Shown piece by piece: positions 35,736 through 44,911 of a stretch of 64,000 nt of DNA; within the stretch, counting starts at the first letter, position 1; each line of letters opens with the position of its first letter. A program made the position numbers and the translations under genes. The notes below the pieces were generated by a model. It saw nothing but the letters and a program-made list of their open reading frames with translations. It searched no databases and was not told the origin of the DNA. The DNA is from Ectothiorhodospiraceae bacterium 2226 (GTDB taxonomy: Bacteria > Pseudomonadota > Gammaproteobacteria > GCA-013348725). The stretch covers positions 2,352,501 to 2,416,500 of the forward strand of contig CP054689.1 of the NCBI GenBank assembly GCA_013348725.1, given 5' to 3'.

Positions 35736-36557
35736 TTACCAGGCGGGGTTGTCCTTGTCCTTCTCGATCAGCGCGTAGGCCGAATGGTTGTGGATGGACT
35801 CGAAGTTCTCGGATTCCACCACGAAGGCGCCGATGCGCTCCTCCGCGTTCAGGCGCGCGGCGACGTCGCGCACCATGTCCTCGACGAACTTGGGATTGTC
35901 GTAGGCACGCTCGGTGACGTACTTCTCGTCCGGCCGCTTGAGCAGGCCGAACAGTTCGCACGAGGCCTCGCTCTCCACGATGTCGATCAGGTCTTCGATC
36001 CAGACGAAGTCGCGCAGGCGCGCGGTGACGGTGACGTGCGAGCGCTGGTTGTGGGCACCGTACGCCGAAATTTCCTTGGAGCAGGGGCACAGGCTGGTGA
36101 CCGGCACCACGACCTTGATGGTCATGACCGGACCTGCCTCGGTGAGTTCGCCGACGAAGGTGACGTTGTAATCGATCAGGCTGCGTACGCCGGACACCGG
36201 CGCGGCCTTCTCGATGAAGTAGGGGAAGGCCATCTCGATGTGACCGGCCTGCGCTTCGAGGATCTCGGTCATCTCGCCGAGCATCTCCTTGAAGCTCTTC
36301 ACGCAGATCTCGCGCTCGTGGCGGTTGAGGATCGCGACGAAGCGCGACATGTGCGTGCCCTTGAAGTTGTGCGGCAGGTTCACGTACATGTTGAAATTCG
36401 CCACGGTGTGCTGCTCACCGCCGGCGCGCTGGCGCACCCGCACCGGGTGGCGGATGTCCTTGATGCCCACCTTGTTGATCGGGATGCAGCGCGTGTCGGC
36501 GCTGGCCTGCACGTCAGCGATGACGGGCGTGACGACGGAGGCAGGGCTTTGGCTCAT
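35736..36557 (-). CDS. folE2: GTP cyclohydrolase I type B (FolE2)
   Basis: 273 residues of the COG1469 family: [20 protein letters not shown] active-site segment with metal Cys, and [13 protein letters not shown]. Makes 7,8-dihydroneopterin triphosphate for folate (and queuosine). In many bacteria it is the zinc-sparing paralogue of FolE. No Zur-like box is obvious. It sits alone between a small membrane-protein gene and dxs. Confidence 0.95.
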
Positions 36558-36620
36558 GGTGCGACTTCCTCGACGACGACGAGCGCGGCGCGCTCTATTC
36601 CTGAGTAAATTACTGGGACT

Positions 36621-38498
36621 TTACGCGAGCGGGGTGATATTGGCAAGGCTCTGGTGCACGCTGCGTACGATACCCTCGGCGCTAAGTCCGCATTCGGCAA
36701 GCAGTTCCTCCCGCGCGCCGTGATCCACGAAGCGGTCGGGCAGGCCCAAGTGCATGAGCGCCACGCTGATGCCGTGGCGTGCCAGCGTCTCGGCGACGCC
36801 GCTGCCGGCACCGCCCGCCACCGCGTTCTCTTCGACCGTCACCAGCAGCTCGTGTTCCTTGGCCAGCGCCACGATCAGCGCTTCGTCCAGCGGCTTCACG
36901 TAGCGCATGTTGACCACCGTGGCGTCCAGCGTCGCGCCGGCCTCCAGCGCCGGCGCGAGCATGCTGCCGAAGGCGAGCAGCGCCACACTTTCACCCTGCC
37001 GACGCGGTTCCGCCTTGCCGACCGGTAGTGCCTGCATCGGCGCTTCAACCGGCACACCCGGTCCCTTGCCGCGCGGGTAGCGCACCGCCGCCGGGCCCTC
37101 GAGCTGACAGGCGGTATAGAGCATCTGGCGGCACTCATTCTCGTCGGCCGGCGCCATCACGGTCATGTTCGGGATGCACCGCAGGAAGCTCAGGTCGAAG
37201 CTGCCCGCGTGGGTGGGGCCGTCGGGGCCGACCAATCCCGCGCGGTCGATGGCGAACACCACCGGCAGGTTCTGGATCGCCACGTCGTGGATCAGCTGGT
37301 CGTAGGCGCGCTGCAAAAAGGTCGAATAGATCGCCACCACCGGTTTCTGCCCCTCGCAGGCCAGCCCCGCCGCCAGGGTCACCGCGTGTTGCTCGGCGAT
37401 GCCCACGTCGTAGTAGCGGTCCGGAAAGCGTTCGGAGAACTCGACCAGCCCGGAGCCTTCGCGCATCGCGGGGGTAATGCCGACCACGCGGTCGTCGGCC
37501 GCCGCCATATCGCACAGCCACTGGCCGAATACCTGCGTGTAGGTCGGCCCGCCGCCGGCCGAGGCCGCCTGCCTGCCGCTCGCCGGATCGAACTTGCTCA
37601 CGCCGTGATAGGTGCAGGGGTTCGCCTCGGCGGGCGCATAGCCCTTGCCCTTACGCGTCACCACATGCAGGAACTGCGGGCCCTTCAGCGCGCGCAGGTT
37701 GCGCAGTGTGCGGATCAGGGTCGGCAGGTCGTGGCCGTCGATGGGGCCTATGTAATTGAAGCCGAGCTCCTCGAACAAGGTGCCCGGAATCACCATTCCC
37801 TTGACGTGTTCCTCGGCGCGCCGCGCCAGTTCCCACACCGGGGGCATCACGCCCAGCACCTTCTTGCTGCCCTCGCGTACGCTCGCGTAGAGCTTGCCGG
37901 AGAGCACCCGCGCCAGGTAGTTCGACAACCCGCCGACATTGGGCGAAATCGACATGTTGTTGTCGTTCAGCACCACCAGCAGGTTGGCGTCCAGGTCGCC
38001 GGCGTGGTTGAGCGCCTCGAAGGCCATGCCCGCGGTCATGGCGCCGTCGCCGATCACCGCCACCACGTTGCGTTGCTCGCCACGCTGGTGTGCGGCGAGC
38101 GCCATGCCGAGTGCGGCACTGACGGAAGTGCTGGAGTGGCCGACGCCGAAGGTGTCGTACGGGCTCTCGCAGCGCTTGGGGAAGCCCGCCAGGCCGCCTT
38201 TCTGTCGCAGCGAGGGCATGCGCTCGCGCCGCCCGGTGAGGATCTTGTGCGGGTAGCTCTGGTGCCCGACGTCCCACACCAGCCGATCCTGCGGGGTGTC
38301 GTACACGTAGTGCAGGGCGAGGGTCAGCTCGACCGTGCCCAGACCGGCCGCGAGGTGACCGCCGGTGCGCGCCACGGATTCGATGAGGAACGAGCGCAAC
38401 TCCGCCGCCAGCGGCTTGAGGTCGCTCTCGGGCAGCGCGCGCAGATCCTCGGGCGAGGTGATGCGCTGGAGCAGGGGAAACGCGGTCAGGCTCGGCAT
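36621..38498 (-). CDS. dxs: 1-deoxy-D-xylulose-5-phosphate synthase
   Basis: 625 residues of the transketolase family: [28 protein letters not shown], thiamine-diphosphate motif [20 protein letters not shown]...NDNNMSIS, and [16 protein letters not shown]-like segment (read [17 protein letters not shown]). First step of the MEP isoprenoid pathway. Directly follows ispA and xseB, the common gammaproteobacterial order. Confidence 0.97.
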
Positions 38499-38562
38499 GG
38501 GGCGGCGGATGCGTCGATTAAACGGTTAATGATGCGGGGTCGGGGCGCCGCTGGCAAGAAAG

Positions 38563-39447
38563 CTAGCTCATCCGCTCCACGATGTAGCGCGCCACGGCGC
38601 GCAGCAGGTCGGCCTCCGTGCCGAACGGCTCGAGACATGTCAGGGCTTCCTCGTGCAGGGCGCGGGCGTGCGCCTTGGCGCCGTCGAGACCGAGCAGCGC
38701 CGGGTAGGTAGGCTTGCCACGGGCCTGGTCGGCGCCTTGGGTCTTGCCCAGTGTCGCGGTATCGCCTTCGACGTCCAGTACGTCGTCCCTGATCTGGAAC
38801 GCGAGCCCGATATTGCGCGCGTAGCGGTCGAGGCGGGCGAGCTGGTCGTCGTTGACCTCCGCGGCGCAGAGCGCACCGAGACGTACACTGGCGCGGATCA
38901 AGGCGCCGGTCTTACGCAGGTGCATGTCCTCGAGCGCGTCCAGCGTCAGCGCCTGGCCGACCGCGGCCAGATCGATGGCCTGGCCGCCGGCCATGCCGAG
39001 CGAACCGCTGGCCTGCGCGAGCGTGTGCATCATCGCCACGCGCTGCTCGGCGCGCACCGGCGCCTGCACCAAGGCCTCGAAGGCCAGGGCCTGCAGGGCG
39101 TCGCCGACCAAGATGGCGGTCGCCTCGTCATAGGCCTTGTGCACGGTCGGTTTGCCGCGGCGCAGGTCGTCGTCGTCCATCGCGGGGAGGTCGTCGTGGA
39201 CCAGGGAGTACACGTGCACGCACTCCACCGCGCACGCCGCGGCGTCCAGGGCCGCGTCCGGCGCCCCGAGTGCTTCACCGGCCGCATAGACCAGCACCGG
39301 CCGCACGCGCTTGCCGCCGTCGAGCGCGGCGTAGCGCATGGCCTCGTGCAGACGGTGCGGGCTGCTGTGGGCGTCGGGCAGATAGCGCGCGAGCGCCGTC
39401 TCCACCCGCGCCTGCAGGGTCGGAAGGCGTGTCTCGAGCACCGTCAT
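38563..39447 (-). CDS. ispA: Farnesyl diphosphate synthase
   Basis: 294 residues with both Asp-rich motifs: VHDDLPAMDDDDLRRGK and FQIRDDVLDVEGD. Condenses C5 units to C15. Its start overlaps the xseB stop (ATGA at 39444-39447). Followed by dxs. Confidence 0.97.
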   Translation of the reverse strand: MTVLETRLPTLQARVETALARYLPDAHSSPHRLHEAMRYAALDGGKRVRPVLVYAAGEALGAPDAALDAAACAVECVHVYSLVHDDLPAMDDDDLRRGKPTVHKAYDEATAILVGDALQALAFEALVQAPVRAEQRVAMMHTLAQASGSLGMAGGQAIDLAAVGQALTLDALEDMHLRKTGALIRASVRLGALCAAEVNDDQLARLDRYARNIGLAFQIRDDVLDVEGDTATLGKTQGADQARGKPTYPALLGLDGAKAHARALHEEALTCLEPFGTEADLLRAVARYIVERMS

Positions 39448-39740
39448 TCCTCGGGTTGGGCGGGGGCCTGAAAGGGTGCCAGGGTCGCCTCGCCCTGACG
39501 CTGCAACAGCAGCTCGACCTTCTGTTCGGCCTCGCCGAGCGCTTGCTGACAGAGGCGCGTCAGCTCCACGCCGCGCTCGAAATCGCGCAGCGCCTCCTCC
39601 AGGGTCTGTTCGCCCTGCTCCATGCGCGCCACCAGGGCATCGAGTTCCTGCAGCGCCTGCTCGAATTGTGCGATGGACTGCTGGGCGGCCGGGGTGTCGG
39701 CCTGGCTGGTTCTCTTGGGCACGGACGGGTCCTGCTCCAT
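39444..39740 (-). CDS. xseB: Exodeoxyribonuclease VII small subunit
   Basis: 98 residues from ATG at 39740; the helical core FEQALQELDALVARMEQGEQTLEEALRDFERGVEL is the XseB signature, shown here in part: LVARMEQGEQTLEEAL. Partner of XseA in single-strand DNA cleavage. N-terminal 25 residues are low in structure. An upstream in-frame ATG (39836) lacks family support. Confidence 0.93.
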   Translation of the reverse strand: MEQDPSVPKRTSQADTPAAQQSIAQFEQALQELDALVARMEQGEQTLEEALRDFERGVELTRLCQQALGEAEQKVELLLQRQGEATLAPFQAPAQPEE

Positions 39741-40015
39741 GTCAAGTACAGGGACGAAAAAGGGGGCTAACCTTACCACGGATAGGGCAGGGGCCCCTAG
39801 CCCGCATTCTCGCCGAGCGGACAGCGGAGGCCGCACAAGTAATTGAAAGCCTGGTTGAAACCAGGAGGAATCGGCGCAGTGACACCCTGCTCGCCGCTGT
39901 CCTATCGCGGTTCGGGCCGGTCGCTGCCTCGGTAGCGTGGGCGGGAGCTGGCGGGACCGCGTCGCCAGGGACGTTGTTCAGCAGGTTCAGGGGCTTGCGG
40001 GCGTTCCGCGTCATG

Positions 40016-40044
40016 TTGACACGGTCTAAGGCCTTCGGTATCGT
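40016..40044 (+). promoter_or_regulatory. Near-consensus sigma70 promoter of the rubrerythrin operon
   Basis: Perfect TTGACA (40016-40021), exactly 17-base spacer, TATCGT (40039-40044). The predicted start site near 40051 falls on the first base of the inverted repeat listed next. Confidence 0.75.
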
Positions 40045-40050
40045 TACGGC

Positions 40051-40073
40051 AGATTTAGACTGATTCTAAATCT
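40051..40073 (+). promoter_or_regulatory. Perfect inverted-repeat operator at the rubrerythrin start site
   Basis: AGATTTAGA (40051-40059), spacer CTGAT, TCTAAATCT (40065-40073): nine perfectly paired positions per arm. The core TTTAGA-N5-TCTAAA resembles Fur-superfamily sites of the PerR/Irr kind (Irr-type consensus TTTAGAA-N3-TTCTAAA, one mismatch). Placement across +1 implies repression. It is too AT-rich for a terminator here and has no T-run. Confidence 0.75.
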
Positions 40074-40148
40074 CGTCCTGCGGGCGCCGGAACAGGGCGC
40101 AGAAGCTAGACATTTTTCGTCTGTATCACAAGTGGAGGAAAGCTAGTC

Positions 40149-40568
40149 ATGGAACTCAAAGGAAGCAAGACCGAGGACAACCTCAAGTACGCGTTCGCGG
40201 GTGAGTCGCAGGCCAACCGTCGTTATCTGTACTTTGCCGCCAAGGCCGACGTGGAAGGCTACAACGACGTCGCCGCCGTGTTCCGCTCCACGGCCGAGGG
40301 CGAGACCGGTCATGCGCACGGGCACCTGGAATACCTCGAGTCCTGCGGCGATCCGGCCACCGGCATGCAGTTCGGCCCGACGGCGGACAACCTGAAGACC
40401 GCCATCGCCGGCGAGACGCACGAGTACACCGACATGTACCCGGGCATGGCGAAGGCCGCGCGTGACGAAGGCTTCGACGAGATCGCGGACTGGTTCGAGA
40501 CGCTGGCCAAGGCCGAGCGCTCGCACGCCAACCGCTTCCAGAAGGCCCTGGATACCCTGGGTAGCTAA
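40149..40568 (+). CDS. rbr: Rubrerythrin (short form, no rubredoxin domain)
   Basis: 139 residues, only the four-helix di-iron domain: [10 protein letters not shown] (Glu19), [22 protein letters not shown] and [11 protein letters not shown] provide the Glu/His ligands. The C-terminal Cys-x2-Cys rubredoxin domain of classical rubrerythrin is missing, so electrons must come from another protein, possibly the Fe-S oxidoreductase encoded next. Likely peroxide reductase. Confidence 0.93.
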
Positions 40569-40576
40569 GAACGGCG

Positions 40577-40604
40577 AGGGGGCCCCGCGCGGGCCCCCTT
40601 TCTC
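40577..40604 (+). terminator. Intrinsic terminator/attenuator after rubrerythrin
   Basis: AGGGGGCCC (40577-40585), loop CGCGC, GGGCCCCCT, then TTCTCTT. It would make rubrerythrin more abundant than the downstream genes if they share the promoter. Confidence 0.75.
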
Positions 40605-40657
40605 TTGGTTCGAGAGCCCCTGTGCTCGCCTGACTCAAACCGAAAGAAGGACAAGCT

Positions 40658-42007
40658 ATGTCAGCGCCCACCGACCAACAACGCGAAGGCAGTCTCGAGG
40701 CGCCTACCCGGCACCCGCTGGACTGGAAAAACCCCGAGTTCTACAACGAGCAGTCCTTGTTCGAGGAAATGGACCGGGTCTTCGATATCTGTCATGGGTG
40801 TCGGCGCTGTTTCAGTCTGTGCAACTCCTTTCCCACCTTGTTCGACGCGATCGACGAGTCGCCCACCATGGAGCTCGACGGCGTCGACAAGAAGGTCTAC
40901 TGGGACGTGGTGGACCACTGCTACCTGTGTGACATGTGCTACATGAGCAAGTGTCCCTATGTGCCGCCGCATCCCTGGAATGTCGATTTCCCGCATCTGA
41001 TGCTGCGCGCCAAAGCGCTGCGCCATCAGCAAGGCAAGCACAAGCTGCGCGACCGGATGATCACCTCCACCGACACCGTGGGGCGCTTCGCCGGCATTCC
41101 CGTCGTGGTGCAGATGGTCAATGCCGCCAACAGGAGCCGTCCGCTGCGCAAGGCGCTGGACAAGGTGATGGGCATCCACCCCGATGCGCTGCTGCCCGAA
41201 TACCACAGCAACACCCTGCGCAAACGTCTCAAGGGGCGCGCCGGTCAGGACGCTCAGGGCGAACCCGCCGGTCCCACGCGCGGCAAGGTGGCCTTGTTCG
41301 CCACCTGCTATGGCAACTACAACCAGCCCGAGCTCGGCGAGGACCTGGTGGCCGTGTTCGAGCACAACGGCATCCCGGTGACGATCGCCGAGCAGGAACG
41401 CTGCTGCGGCATGCCCAAGCTGGAGCTCGGCGACTTCGAGACGGTGACCAAGCTCAAAGAGGTCAACATCCCGCAGTTGGCGCGCCTGGTGGATCAGGGT
41501 TGGGACATCGTCGCGCCGGTACCCTCCTGCGTGCTGATGTTCAAGCAGGAGCTGCCGCTGATGTTCCCGGACGACCCGGAGGTCATCAAGGTGCGCGACG
41601 CGATGTACGACCCTTTCGAGTACCTCATGCTGCGTCACCGCGCGGGCAAGCTGAACACCGAGTTCCGCCACAAGATCGGCAAGGTGTCCTACCACGTCGC
41701 GTGCCATCAGCGCGTGCAGAACATCGGTATGAAGACGCGCGAGCTCCTGGAGCTGGTGCCGGACACCAAGCTCGAGCCGATCGAGCGCTGCTCGGGACAC
41801 GACGGCACCTACGCCGTGAAGAGCGAGTTCCACGAGACCTCGATGAAGATCTGCAAGCCGGTGGTGAACCGGGTGAAGAAGGCCGAGGCGGATTACTACA
41901 CCAGCGACTGCCCTATCGCCGGCACGCAGATCAAGAACGGCATGGGTGCCGATGCGGCGGATCCGGTGCATCCGTTATCCCTGCTCCGCAAGGCCTACGG
42001 AATCTGA
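40658..42007 (+). CDS. GlpC/HdrD-like Fe-S oxidoreductase with CCG domains
   Basis: 449 residues. N-terminus: two cluster motifs CHGCRRCFSLC and CYLCDMCYMSKC. C-terminus: two CCG-like halves, FATCYGN...RCCGMPKL...PSCVLMFK and VACHQR...ERCSGHDG...SDCPIAG; the Cys-Ser-Gly-His form of the second is typical of GlpC relatives. It carries no flavin or membrane helices. The gene string rubrerythrin, this protein and DUF3501 recurs in Proteobacteria. A role as electron donor to rubrerythrin is inference. Confidence 0.88.
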   Translation: MSAPTDQQREGSLEAPTRHPLDWKNPEFYNEQSLFEEMDRVFDICHGCRRCFSLCNSFPTLFDAIDESPTMELDGVDKKVYWDVVDHCYLCDMCYMSKCPYVPPHPWNVDFPHLMLRAKALRHQQGKHKLRDRMITSTDTVGRFAGIPVVVQMVNAANRSRPLRKALDKVMGIHPDALLPEYHSNTLRKRLKGRAGQDAQGEPAGPTRGKVALFATCYGNYNQPELGEDLVAVFEHNGIPVTIAEQERCCGMPKLELGDFETVTKLKEVNIPQLARLVDQGWDIVAPVPSCVLMFKQELPLMFPDDPEVIKVRDAMYDPFEYLMLRHRAGKLNTEFRHKIGKVSYHVACHQRVQNIGMKTRELLELVPDTKLEPIERCSGHDGTYAVKSEFHETSMKICKPVVNRVKKAEADYYTSDCPIAGTQIKNGMGADAADPVHPLSLLRKAYGI

Positions 42008-42058
42008 GTCCGCGTGCAGCGCGGGCGTCATCGACGACCACCACAAGGAGAGTAAGGC

Positions 42059-42367
42059 ATGGGCGGCAACAGCGAGAGTTATCACGAGCCCATAGAACAG
42101 CTCGACGAGGACGTGCGCGACATGCACCGCGCGATCGCCTCGCTGATGGAGGAGTTGGAGGCCGTGGACTGGTACAACCAGCGGATGGCGGCCACCAAGG
42201 ACGTCACGCTGCGTGCGATCCTGCGTCACAACCGCGACGAGGAAAAGGAGCACGCGGCCATGATGCTGGAGTGGATTCGCCGTAAGGATCCCGTGTTCGA
42301 CAAAGAGCTGCGGGACTACCTGTTCACCGACAAGCCGATTACCAAACTCGAGGAGGAGAGCGACTGA
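42059..42367 (+). CDS. encFtn: Encapsulated-ferritin-like protein (EncFtn) without encapsulin
   Basis: 102 residues, closely like EncFtn of Rhodospirillum rubrum: DMHRAIASLMEELEAVDWY and NRDEEKEHAAMMLEW. The metal and entry residues Glu32, Trp38, Tyr39, Glu62 and His65 have the same numbering. EncFtn normally forms an annular ferroxidase decamer inside an encapsulin shell and has a C-terminal targeting peptide. Here the protein ends soon after FTDKPITKLEEE, with no targeting peptide, and the next gene is not encapsulin. A free ferroxidase is implied. Confidence 0.9.
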   Translation: MGGNSESYHEPIEQLDEDVRDMHRAIASLMEELEAVDWYNQRMAATKDVTLRAILRHNRDEEKEHAAMMLEWIRRKDPVFDKELRDYLFTDKPITKLEEESD

Positions 42368-42415
42368 GCGCGTAGCGCGCTGCGCCGCCTCCCGCATCGC
42401 ACGAAGGAGACCACC

Positions 42416-43009
42416 ATGGATAAGTTGCAACGCCAAGACCTGTTCACCCTGGAGAAGTACGCCGAGGTGCGGCCGGAGTTCCGGGCCAAGGTCATGGCCC
42501 ACAAGAAGAGTCGCAAGGTGGCGCTGGGTGACCACGCCACGGTCTACTTCGAGGACCGGCTGACGCTGCAGTATCAGATCCAGGAGATGTTGCGCGTGGA
42601 GCGCATCTTTGAGGCCGCCGGTATCCAGGAAGAGCTGGACGCCTACAACCCCTTGGTGCCCGACGGCAACAATTGGAAGGCAACCTTCATGGTCGAGTAC
42701 GACGATATCGACGAGCGCCGCGAGATGCTGGCCAAGCTCATCGGTATCGAGGACAAGGTGTGGGTGAAGGTCGGCGAGCACCCCAAGGTGTACGCGATCG
42801 CGGACGAGGACCTGGAGCGCGAGACCGACGAGAAGACTTCGTCGGTGCACTTCCTGCGCTTTGAACTGACGCAGGAGATGTGTCAGGCGGTCGCGAGCGG
42901 CGCTTCGATCGGTGTCGGTGTGGACCATCCCGAGTGCACGCAGGCCGTGGATCCGGTGCCGGAGAACGTACGCGCGGCATTGGCGGCGGACATCGCTCCT
43001 CAACACTGA
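42416..43009 (+). CDS. DUF3501 family protein
   Basis: 197 residues beginning MDKLQRQDLFTLEKYAEVRPEFR, the DUF3501 N-terminus, with VYFEDRLTLQYQIQEMLR following. Soluble, acidic, few cysteines. The family is found almost always in rubrerythrin plus GlpC-like operons; its job is unknown. It is the last gene before the terminator. Confidence 0.9.
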   Translation: MDKLQRQDLFTLEKYAEVRPEFRAKVMAHKKSRKVALGDHATVYFEDRLTLQYQIQEMLRVERIFEAAGIQEELDAYNPLVPDGNNWKATFMVEYDDIDERREMLAKLIGIEDKVWVKVGEHPKVYAIADEDLERETDEKTSSVHFLRFELTQEMCQAVASGASIGVGVDHPECTQAVDPVPENVRAALAADIAPQH

Positions 43010-43027
43010 GGCCTGCAGTCGGAGTAC

Positions 43028-43064
43028 ACGAAGGGCACGCGGCACCGCGTGCCCTTCGTCTTTT
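43028..43064 (+). terminator. Intrinsic terminator of the rubrerythrin/EncFtn operon
   Basis: Fifteen-base complementary arms ACGAAGGGCACGCGG (43028-43042) and CCGCGTGCCCTTCGT (43045-43059), then CTTTT. Very stable. Confidence 0.93.
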
Positions 43065-43157
43065 GACGGGCGGCGTACGTTCCGCGGCGCGGCGGTCGGT
43101 TAAGGGAGGGCCGGAATAGCTTCGTGCCTGGTCCTCAGACCCCTGTTCAGAGCTTCC

Positions 43158-43934
43158 CTAACGCGGTACGTAAACGGTGCGCCCATCGGGGGCGTGCAGA
43201 CTCACGACGGCTTGGCCGTACAGTCGCTCGAGCACGGCCGTATCGAGGATATCCCCCGCCGCCCCGGCCAGCCACGAGCCGTCGCCGAACAGCAGCAGCA
43301 GGTGATCGCAATAACGCAGCGCGAGGTTGACGTCGTGCAGGCTCATGAGCGTCGCCCCCTGGCGCGCACGCGCGCGCGCCACGACCTGGTCGAGCACGGC
43401 GAGTTGATGGTGCGGATCGAGGTGGTTGGTCGGCTCATCGAGCAGATAGATGCGCGGATCCTGGGTGAGCAGGCGCGCCACACCGAGTCGGCGGCGCTCG
43501 CCGCCCGACAAGGTGTGGACAGCGCGGGCCTCGAGTCCCCCCAGATCGACGGCGGCCAGTGCCGCATGCGCGGTACGCCGATCCGCGTCGCTCTCCGAAG
43601 CGAAAGGACCGAGGTGCGGGTGGCGCCCCGTGAGGGTGGTCTCCAGCACGGTGGCGGGAAAGTCGGCGGGTTCGTCCTGAAACAGCACGCCCACCTCGCG
43701 CGCCAACGCGCGGCGTGACCATGCGCCCACGGGGCGCCCCTCTAATTCGAGTTCGCCGTTCACCGGCGGGAGGAGGCCCGCCAAGGTGTGCAGCAGCGTG
43801 GTCTTGCCGCTGCCGTTGCGACCGAGCACCGCCCAGCATTGACCCGCGGTCAGCGAGAACTCCAGCGCGTCGAGCAGGGTCCGTCGGCCGCGGACCAGCC
43901 CCAGGCCTCGCGCCGTCAGTAGGGGCGAGCTCAT
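43158..43934 (-). CDS. ABC transporter ATP-binding protein (FecE/BtuD type)
   Basis: 258 residues from ATG at 43934, which overlaps the permease stop (ATGA). Walker A GRNGSGKTT, signature LSGGERRRLG, Walker B IYLLDEP and a switch His (SLHDVNL) are intact. Powers import of vitamin B12, haem or ferric siderophore with the permease encoded upstream. No substrate-binding protein is in the window, so the substrate is unresolved. Confidence 0.93.
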   Translation of the reverse strand: MSSPLLTARGLGLVRGRRTLLDALEFSLTAGQCWAVLGRNGSGKTTLLHTLAGLLPPVNGELELEGRPVGAWSRRALAREVGVLFQDEPADFPATVLETTLTGRHPHLGPFASESDADRRTAHAALAAVDLGGLEARAVHTLSGGERRRLGVARLLTQDPRIYLLDEPTNHLDPHHQLAVLDQVVARARARQGATLMSLHDVNLALRYCDHLLLLFGDGSWLAGAAGDILDTAVLERLYGQAVVSLHAPDGRTVYVPR

Positions 43935-44911
43935 CGGCTGGGGCCGGCGCTGCGCTGTAATAGGAACAGGAACACCGGCACGCCGATCAAGGCGGTGACG
44001 ACCCCCACCGGGAGCTGTTGCGGCGCGAAGGCGGTGCGCGCCAGCGTATCGGCCAGCACCAGCAGGATGCCGCCGAGCAGGGCGGCCCCCGGCAACACGT
44101 AGCGGTGGTCCGAGCCCACGAGCAGGCGCACGATGTGCGGCACGATAAGGCCCACAAAGCCCACGCTGCCCGCGGTGGTGACGGCGAAGGCGGTCAGCAG
44201 CGAGGCCAGCACGTAGAGCACCAGCTGCAGTCGATTCACGTTCACCCCGAGCGCCTGGGCCTGCAGGGCACCGTGGGTGAGTACATTCAGGGGGCGTGCC
44301 AAGGCGAGGGTGCCGAGCGCGGCGGCCGCCAGCACCATGAGCGGCGCCAGCGGCGCGCTGCTGTAGGTTAGGTCCCCCATCAGCCAGAACAGCATGCCGC
44401 GCAGCTGTGCATCGGGCGCCAGGGCGAGCAAGAAACTGATGAGCGCGCCCCAGCCTCCGGCGATCACCACGCCCGTGAGCAGCAGGCGGGTGGCGGTCCA
44501 GCTGCCGCGGCCGTGCGCCAGTCCGAATACCAAGAACATCGACAGCAGGGCGCCGGCGAAGGCGCTGCCGGTCAGCCACAGGCCGCCTAGTCCGGCCAGC
44601 ATGGCGAGCAGGGCGGCGACCGCGGCACCGCCGGCGACGCCGAGCACGTAAGGATCGGCCAAAGGGTTGCGTAGCAGCACCTGCATCAGCGCGCCCGCCA
44701 GACCAAGCAGCCCGCCCGCGGCGAACCCGGCGAGGATGCGGGGCATGCGCAACTCAAGGACCAGTGAGCGGCTCAGCTCGTCGCCGCCGCCGAGGAGCAC
44801 GCTCGCGACGTGCCAAGGCGAGAGAGCGATGCTACCCGTTCCCAAGGCCAGCAGGACGCTGGCGGCGGCGAGCAACAACAAGACGGGCAAGAAAAGGTGG
44901 TTGCGTGACAT
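43931..44911 (-). CDS. FecCD/BtuC-family ABC transporter permease
   Basis: 326 residues, about 9-10 hydrophobic segments with the family motifs RMPRILAGFAAGGLLGLAGALMQ (shown by its parts RMPRIL and GALMQ), NPLADPYVLG, and GFVGLIVPHIVR. Forms the membrane channel of an iron-siderophore or cobalamin importer. Overlaps the ATPase gene by 4 bases. The gene upstream is a PilZ-like protein, not a binding protein. Confidence 0.93.
   Translation of the reverse strand: MSRNHLFLPVLLLLAAASVLLALGTGSIALSPWHVASVLLGGGDELSRSLVLELRMPRILAGFAAGGLLGLAGALMQVLLRNPLADPYVLGVAGGAAVAALLAMLAGLGGLWLTGSAFAGALLSMFLVFGLAHGRGSWTATRLLLTGVVIAGGWGALISFLLALAPDAQLRGMLFWLMGDLTYSSAPLAPLMVLAAAALGTLALARPLNVLTHGALQAQALGVNVNRLQLVLYVLASLLTAFAVTTAGSVGFVGLIVPHIVRLLVGSDHRYVLPGAALLGGILLVLADTLARTAFAPQQLPVGVVTALIGVPVFLFLLQRSAGPSR

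Follow-up and report, generated by a model that had tools for sequence, protein, structure and literature searches.

The rubrerythrin operon and its predicted promoter

The window, by which we mean the whole 64,000-nucleotide stretch of the Ectothiorhodospiraceae bacterium 2226 genome analysed here, carries a rubrerythrin operon on the + strand, with xseB as its divergent upstream neighbour. A GGAGG ribosome-binding site (40134..40138, +) precedes the first gene, which encodes a 139-aa rubrerythrin of the aerobic type, without a rubredoxin domain (40149..40568; Pfam PF02915). It is followed by genes for an Fe-S oxidoreductase with a CCG domain (RFO, GlpC-like; 40658..42007; Pfam PF02754 and GlpC models), a 102-aa EncFtn-like (encapsulated-ferritin) protein (42059..42367; Pfam PF22277, with TIGR04535 above cut-off) and a DUF3501 protein (42416..43009; Pfam PF12007), all in the same orientation. 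Inspection of 36000-44500 revealed no gene for an encapsulin shell. Between rubrerythrin and RFO lies a GC-rich perfect hairpin followed by TTCTCTT (40577..40599, +), a possible attenuator or terminator that may reduce onward transcription such that rubrerythrin is made in excess. In 74 of 80 named relatives, RFO or DUF3501 comes after rubrerythrin within the region examined, and EncFtn also belongs to the cluster in 13 of the 80. The operon genes are those of a described aerobic-type rubrerythrin/RFO/DUF3501 cluster (PMC5114695), for which no regulator is discussed; here, by contrast, the cluster contains an additional EncFtn-like gene, and we propose a regulator for it.

The predicted promoter combines a -35 hexamer, TTGACA (40016..40021, +), with a -10 hexamer, TATCGT (40039..40044, +), across a 17-bp spacer, and is the sole sigma70-like match across 39850-40200 (10/12; shuffle average 0.0). 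The start expected from this match, 7-9 nt past the -10, falls at ~40051-40053, which is the left edge of a 23-bp perfect palindrome (40051..40073, not assigned to a strand), the proposed Irr-type operator. Its 9-bp arms, AGATTTAGA (40051-40059) and TCTAAATCT (40065-40073), flank CTGAT (40060-40064) without a mismatch. Within it lies a 15-bp core, TTAGACT-G-ATTCTAA (7-1-7; 40055..40069, likewise unstranded), which is conserved at loci of the class and is the only core in the window with at least 9/10 matches. The original prediction had placed a perfect 9-base inverted repeat at the start expected for a TTGACA-17-TATCGT promoter; the repeat is confirmed to the letter, and so is the promoter just before it.

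An inverted repeat of this kind is by itself unremarkable, since the window holds 29 perfect 9-bp examples with loops of 3-8 (~5 expected), an abundance that favours reading the palindrome as a product of chance with no function. It is the sole perfect 9-bp repeat with AT-rich arms in this window of 66.6% GC (0 expected), and TTTAGAN5TCTAAA with up to two mismatches occurs once in the window versus 0.11 expected; the chance expectation for a perfect TTAGAN5TCTAA is 0.2 per genome. The persuasive evidence for a site is conservation in relatives, not the repeat alone. The arms would also pair in RNA, as a 5'-leader hairpin acting after transcription start would do, but leader folding is only modestly above shuffles (z -1.7) and no U-run follows. 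Moreover, the bases, and not just their pairing, are fixed in relatives, and the motif recurs ahead of unrelated genes, all of which makes an RNA element highly improbable.

Conservation of the site across the class

The order contains this genome only, and comparison was therefore made at the level of the gammaproteobacterial class, betaproteobacteria included, using 274 genomes, mostly one or two per family. Irr-like proteins, called at E below 1e-24 (a threshold taken from the hit list), occur in 109 of these genomes (~40%). It had been suggested that the regulator may be of a type not typical for this group; it is instead common, and unusual only against the literature. The 15-bp core (TTAGACTnAGTCTAA or TTAGAATnATTCTAA, at least 9/10 bases) lies within 250 bp of rubrerythrin at 88 of 119 loci, against 0.9 expected from mononucleotide shuffles, the source of the expected counts given here, and conservation of both position and sequence on this scale refutes a chance palindrome as a general account and makes it exceedingly improbable.

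The core at rubrerythrin tracks the Irr-like paralogue, being present at 77 and missing at 7 of the 84 Irr-positive loci versus present at 11 and missing at 24 of the 35 Irr-negative loci (odds ratio 24, Fisher p 5e-11, with p-values inflated by relatedness between genomes and some genomes incomplete). The suggestion that the palindrome is a site of Irr/PerR type thereby gains support. Some of the 11 Irr-negative loci with a site belong to incomplete genomes or to a family that has an Irr-positive member, and genome G006 encodes a weaker homologue near rubrerythrin. The Irr-negative loci also bear on whether the ordinary Fur of this genome binds the site: such a Fur is present, and Fur boxes share the 7-1-7 layout, but the core heptamer TTAGACT is unlike the classical Fur heptamer, and the 24 Irr-negative loci stand without a site though weaker Fur-family hits are usually detected in those genomes. 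Together with autoregulatory sites at the Irr-like gene (see below), this renders binding by Fur very unlikely.

A perfect 12-base site, TTTAGAN5TCTAAA, occurs somewhere in 92 of the 274 genomes. It is found in 67 of the 109 Irr-positive genomes and absent from 42, versus presence in 25 of the 165 others and absence from 140 (p 2e-15, similarly inflated), and a reversed-pattern control shows the opposite tendency across the same genomes. In the separate set of 80 named loci, at least 11/12 bases are matched in 35 (0.05 expected), the site-bearing relatives including the sulfur oxidisers Thiobacillus and Thioalkalivibrio, Chromatiales and others. Taken over 83 loci, the extended consensus reads ATTTAGACTnAGTCTAAAT. 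A -10 hexamer begins 14-20 bp ahead of the core at 58 of 79 scored loci, and at 13 other scored loci the core itself was misread as the -10. Because this register is conserved, the site would cover the likely transcription start, which is the position of a repressor.

Multiple cores are present at some loci. The rubrerythrin region of L292 (genome G061) has three, at 652-666 and 1188-1232, of which two stand 30 bp apart ahead of rubrerythrin and one lies between rubrerythrin and RFO. Paired cores ~30 bp apart are also seen in L054 and L056, and L396 has such a pair at a gene for cytochrome c peroxidase.

An Irr-like member of the Fur family

The genome, a single contig of 2.96 Mb, has three Fur-family genes, encoding Fur (L001; 204 bits to the Fur model), Zur (L003, adjoining a metal ABC transporter) and an Irr-like protein (L002; C1:779403-779840, minus strand). 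The PerR/Irr-like Fur paralogue proposed for this genome was thus found, with IrrA as its best curated model. It scores 136.2 bits to IrrA and 128.8 to Irr, both under the respective cut-offs of 150 (equivalog) and 170, compared to 96 for PerRA and 26.4 for Fur. Identity to annotated alphaproteobacterial IrrA/Irr proteins is 36-39%, with similarity over the full length. In a tree that holds only four reference Irr proteins, and in which Fur and Zur are long branches, 16 proteins of the class form one clade (98/100) inside the Irr side, with Fur and Zur apart (97/95). Regulators of the Rrf2/IscR type are also present in the genome; nothing connects them with the site.

We evaluated the protein by the presence of an HxH motif, an Asp signature and the lack of CxxC, following PMC8638967 and PMC7762939. 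Residues H42, D91, H97, H99 and D110 align with H37, D85, H91, H93 and D104 of B. subtilis PerR, and an alignment of 20 proteins shows no or almost no variation at these five metal-ligand positions. The Irr-like protein has H97-H98-H99 and D110 and no cysteine pair (CxxC), the additional His that separates the ligand histidines (HHH) being usual in these proteins. Asn67 is invariant in the aligned Irr-like proteins, and an Asn and Asp at the positions of Asn67 and Asp110 distinguish PerR/Irr from Fur (PMC8638967). The Fur features CxxC, Glu signature and recognition-helix Arg are missing from the protein, which has Asn67 and Asp110 instead. Likewise absent from it are the Cys-Pro heme regulatory motif of B. 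japonicum Irr and the CxxC pairs for the structural zinc of PerR. The latter absence is not decisive against PerR, because Leptospira PerRA, whose structure (5nl9; PMC8638967) is the nearest solved one to this protein (E 8e-20), is also without CxxC.

Other sites and possible targets

The rubrerythrin site is the sole perfect TTTAGAN5TCTAAA of this genome. A 9/10 site, CTAGACGCGGTCTAA, lies 23-37 bp ahead of the start codon of the Irr-like gene, and another, ATAGACTGAGTCTAA (9/10; C1:1547664-1547678, loci L006/L275), lies ~40 bp ahead of gpmI, which encodes 2,3-BPG-independent phosphoglycerate mutase. By chance, 9/10 sites would number about nine per 3 Mb genome, yet 0.0003 per 100 bp. The genome scan that had been suggested therefore yielded a second and a third site, and shared sites upstream of other genes were found both here and, at cytochrome c peroxidase, in relatives; because sites precede the Irr-like gene and gpmI, the outcome named as fatal to the original prediction, no second site, does not hold. 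A full-length site with one mismatch at C1:1267196 lies inside coding sequence and is taken as chance.

Linkage of the Irr-like gene with rubrerythrin is seen in relatives. At L133, L139 and L145 the two genes are divergent, whereas the Irr-like gene lies directly past the rubrerythrin operon at L126, and is 0.2-2.1 kb from rubrerythrin in seven genomes (G201, G254, G141, G006, G092, G213 and G249). An autoregulatory-type site is present at 9 of 32 Irr-like loci, versus 0.1 expected. For other candidate targets, the names KatG, peroxidase, peroxiredoxin, GpmI and OxyR were given by eye from sequence, with no family search. Diheme cytochrome c peroxidase has the site at 14 of 30 loci (13 of 20 where Irr-positive; 0.1 expected), and gpmI at 16 of 30 (0.55 expected), comprising 15 of 25 Irr-positive loci versus 1 of 5 others. 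Well-placed sites precede katG in four genomes; as a general target katG is weak, with a site at 4 of the 30 best loci versus 0.6 expected. An AhpC-type peroxiredoxin gene has the site in single genomes (L064, L073), and in L290 (G125) a perfect core at 1158-1172 stands 117 bp ahead of an oxyR-like gene, which raises the possibility that the other peroxide sensor is itself under Irr-like control. Perfect cores also occur in Irr-positive genomes ahead of malic enzyme-like (L294), kdsA-like (L289) and Crp-type (L296) genes, where they may be chance, and the same applies to a perfect site at a recX-like gene.

Neither katG nor a close cytochrome c peroxidase was found in the present genome, and its own regulon may therefore comprise as few as three operons. 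Besides the rubrerythrin operon, gpmI and the gene of the Irr-like regulator itself are probably under its control. The gpmI link may, as a conjecture, reflect the manganese dependence of this mutase; in Salmonella under oxidative stress, a manganese-independent phosphoglycerate mutase isoform is preferred (PMC9315381).

Proposed regulation and its signal

On comparative evidence, the palindrome very probably serves as operator for an Irr-like repressor that senses iron or peroxide. We consider it highly likely that an Irr-type repressor seated over the start, and released by heme/iron or by peroxide, controls the rubrerythrin operon. In this scheme, an Irr-like dimer, or a pair of dimers, would sit on the 7-1-7 core TTAGACTGATTCTAA, across the transcription start, and so block RNA polymerase, such that the rubrerythrin-RFO-EncFtn-DUF3501 operon is held down. 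A rise in heme or iron, or peroxide oxidising the iron-loaded sensor, would cause the protein to leave the DNA, and the peroxide-reducing, iron-storing operon would then be made.

Close parallels exist in alphaproteobacteria. Irr binds ICE boxes in its apo form, and heme either releases the protein or destabilises it (PMC7762939). In R. sphaeroides, Irr boxes occur at ccpA and at the rubrerythrin-like gene mbfA, where the start lies inside the box; Irr represses mbfA, and mutation of irr increases resistance to peroxide (PMC3413700). The protein described here resembles alphaproteobacterial Irr in its ligands, in having no CxxC and in similarity over its full length, and the putative boxes resemble those of R. 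sphaeroides in standing at the start of a rubrerythrin-type gene and at cytochrome c peroxidase. This palindrome also contains TTCTAA, the half-site that was mutated in the mbfA ICE of S. meliloti. However, the present protein belongs to another class, stays below the curated Irr cut-offs and has no Cys-Pro heme motif; its commonest core has an inner C and G (TTAGACT...AGTCTAA); gpmI is among its predicted targets; and in place of the MbfA fusion there is a short aerobic-type rubrerythrin with RFO and DUF3501.

The signal might instead be that of a true PerR, in which the iron-loaded protein binds DNA, peroxide-driven histidine oxidation inactivates it, and heme plays no part. This alternative concerns the signal only, the operator and regulator being shared with the Irr-type explanation. 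It would fit the near-invariant ligand positions and the peroxide enzymes among the targets, of which rubrerythrin and cytochrome c peroxidase recur while katG, AhpC-type peroxiredoxin and oxyR appear in single genomes. It would also fit the nearest structure, since Leptospira PerRA is reported to take part in the peroxide response without CxxC sites and to have an Irr-box-like autoregulatory sequence (PMC8638967). The present system thus resembles PerRA and PerR in the five metal ligands, the Asn of the DNA-reading helix, the Asp signature, the nearest structure and the peroxide-defence targets. On the other hand, Irr proteins have the same ligands and no CxxC, such that sequence cannot separate PerR from Irr; the curated Irr models outscore PerRA (136 and 129 versus 96 bits); the extra His of HHH is usual; and the box differs from the PerR box, TTATAATnATTATAA. 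We put the chance of a true PerR mechanism a little short of even. Binding, repression and signal are what we infer for the Irr-like regulator, and the target list leans to peroxide as its signal; PerR-like chemistry is equally open, because the ligands are shared and the targets are peroxide enzymes.

A broader reading, tentative and on balance doubted, is that of a class-wide Irr/PerR-hybrid regulon, in which an Irr-related peroxide sensor would couple peroxide defence to a glycolytic switch via gpmI. Rubrerythrin and cytochrome c peroxidase would make up this defence, joined in places by catalase-peroxidase, peroxiredoxin and OxyR.

According to a 2020 review, Irr is, with few exceptions, alphaproteobacterial (PMC7762939). 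Irr-type Fur paralogues outside the alphaproteobacteria were predicted in 2008, and the Irr-type regulator of Acidithiobacillus is in this respect similar to the present one; in the parts of that report consulted, no Irr operator or rubrerythrin link is described (PMC2631029). The open-access literature searched gave no account of this operator-regulator pair at a gammaproteobacterial rubrerythrin. The present results place an Irr-like regulator widely within the sampled gammaproteobacterial class, against the alphaproteobacterial placement in the literature, and the widespread aerobic rubrerythrin-RFO-DUF3501 operon would gain a regulator, whose defined operator and small regulon are testable. 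They also raise the question of whether peroxide or heme was the original signal of Irr-type proteins, and the sites at gpmI suggest that this sensor also acts on a central step of glycolysis.
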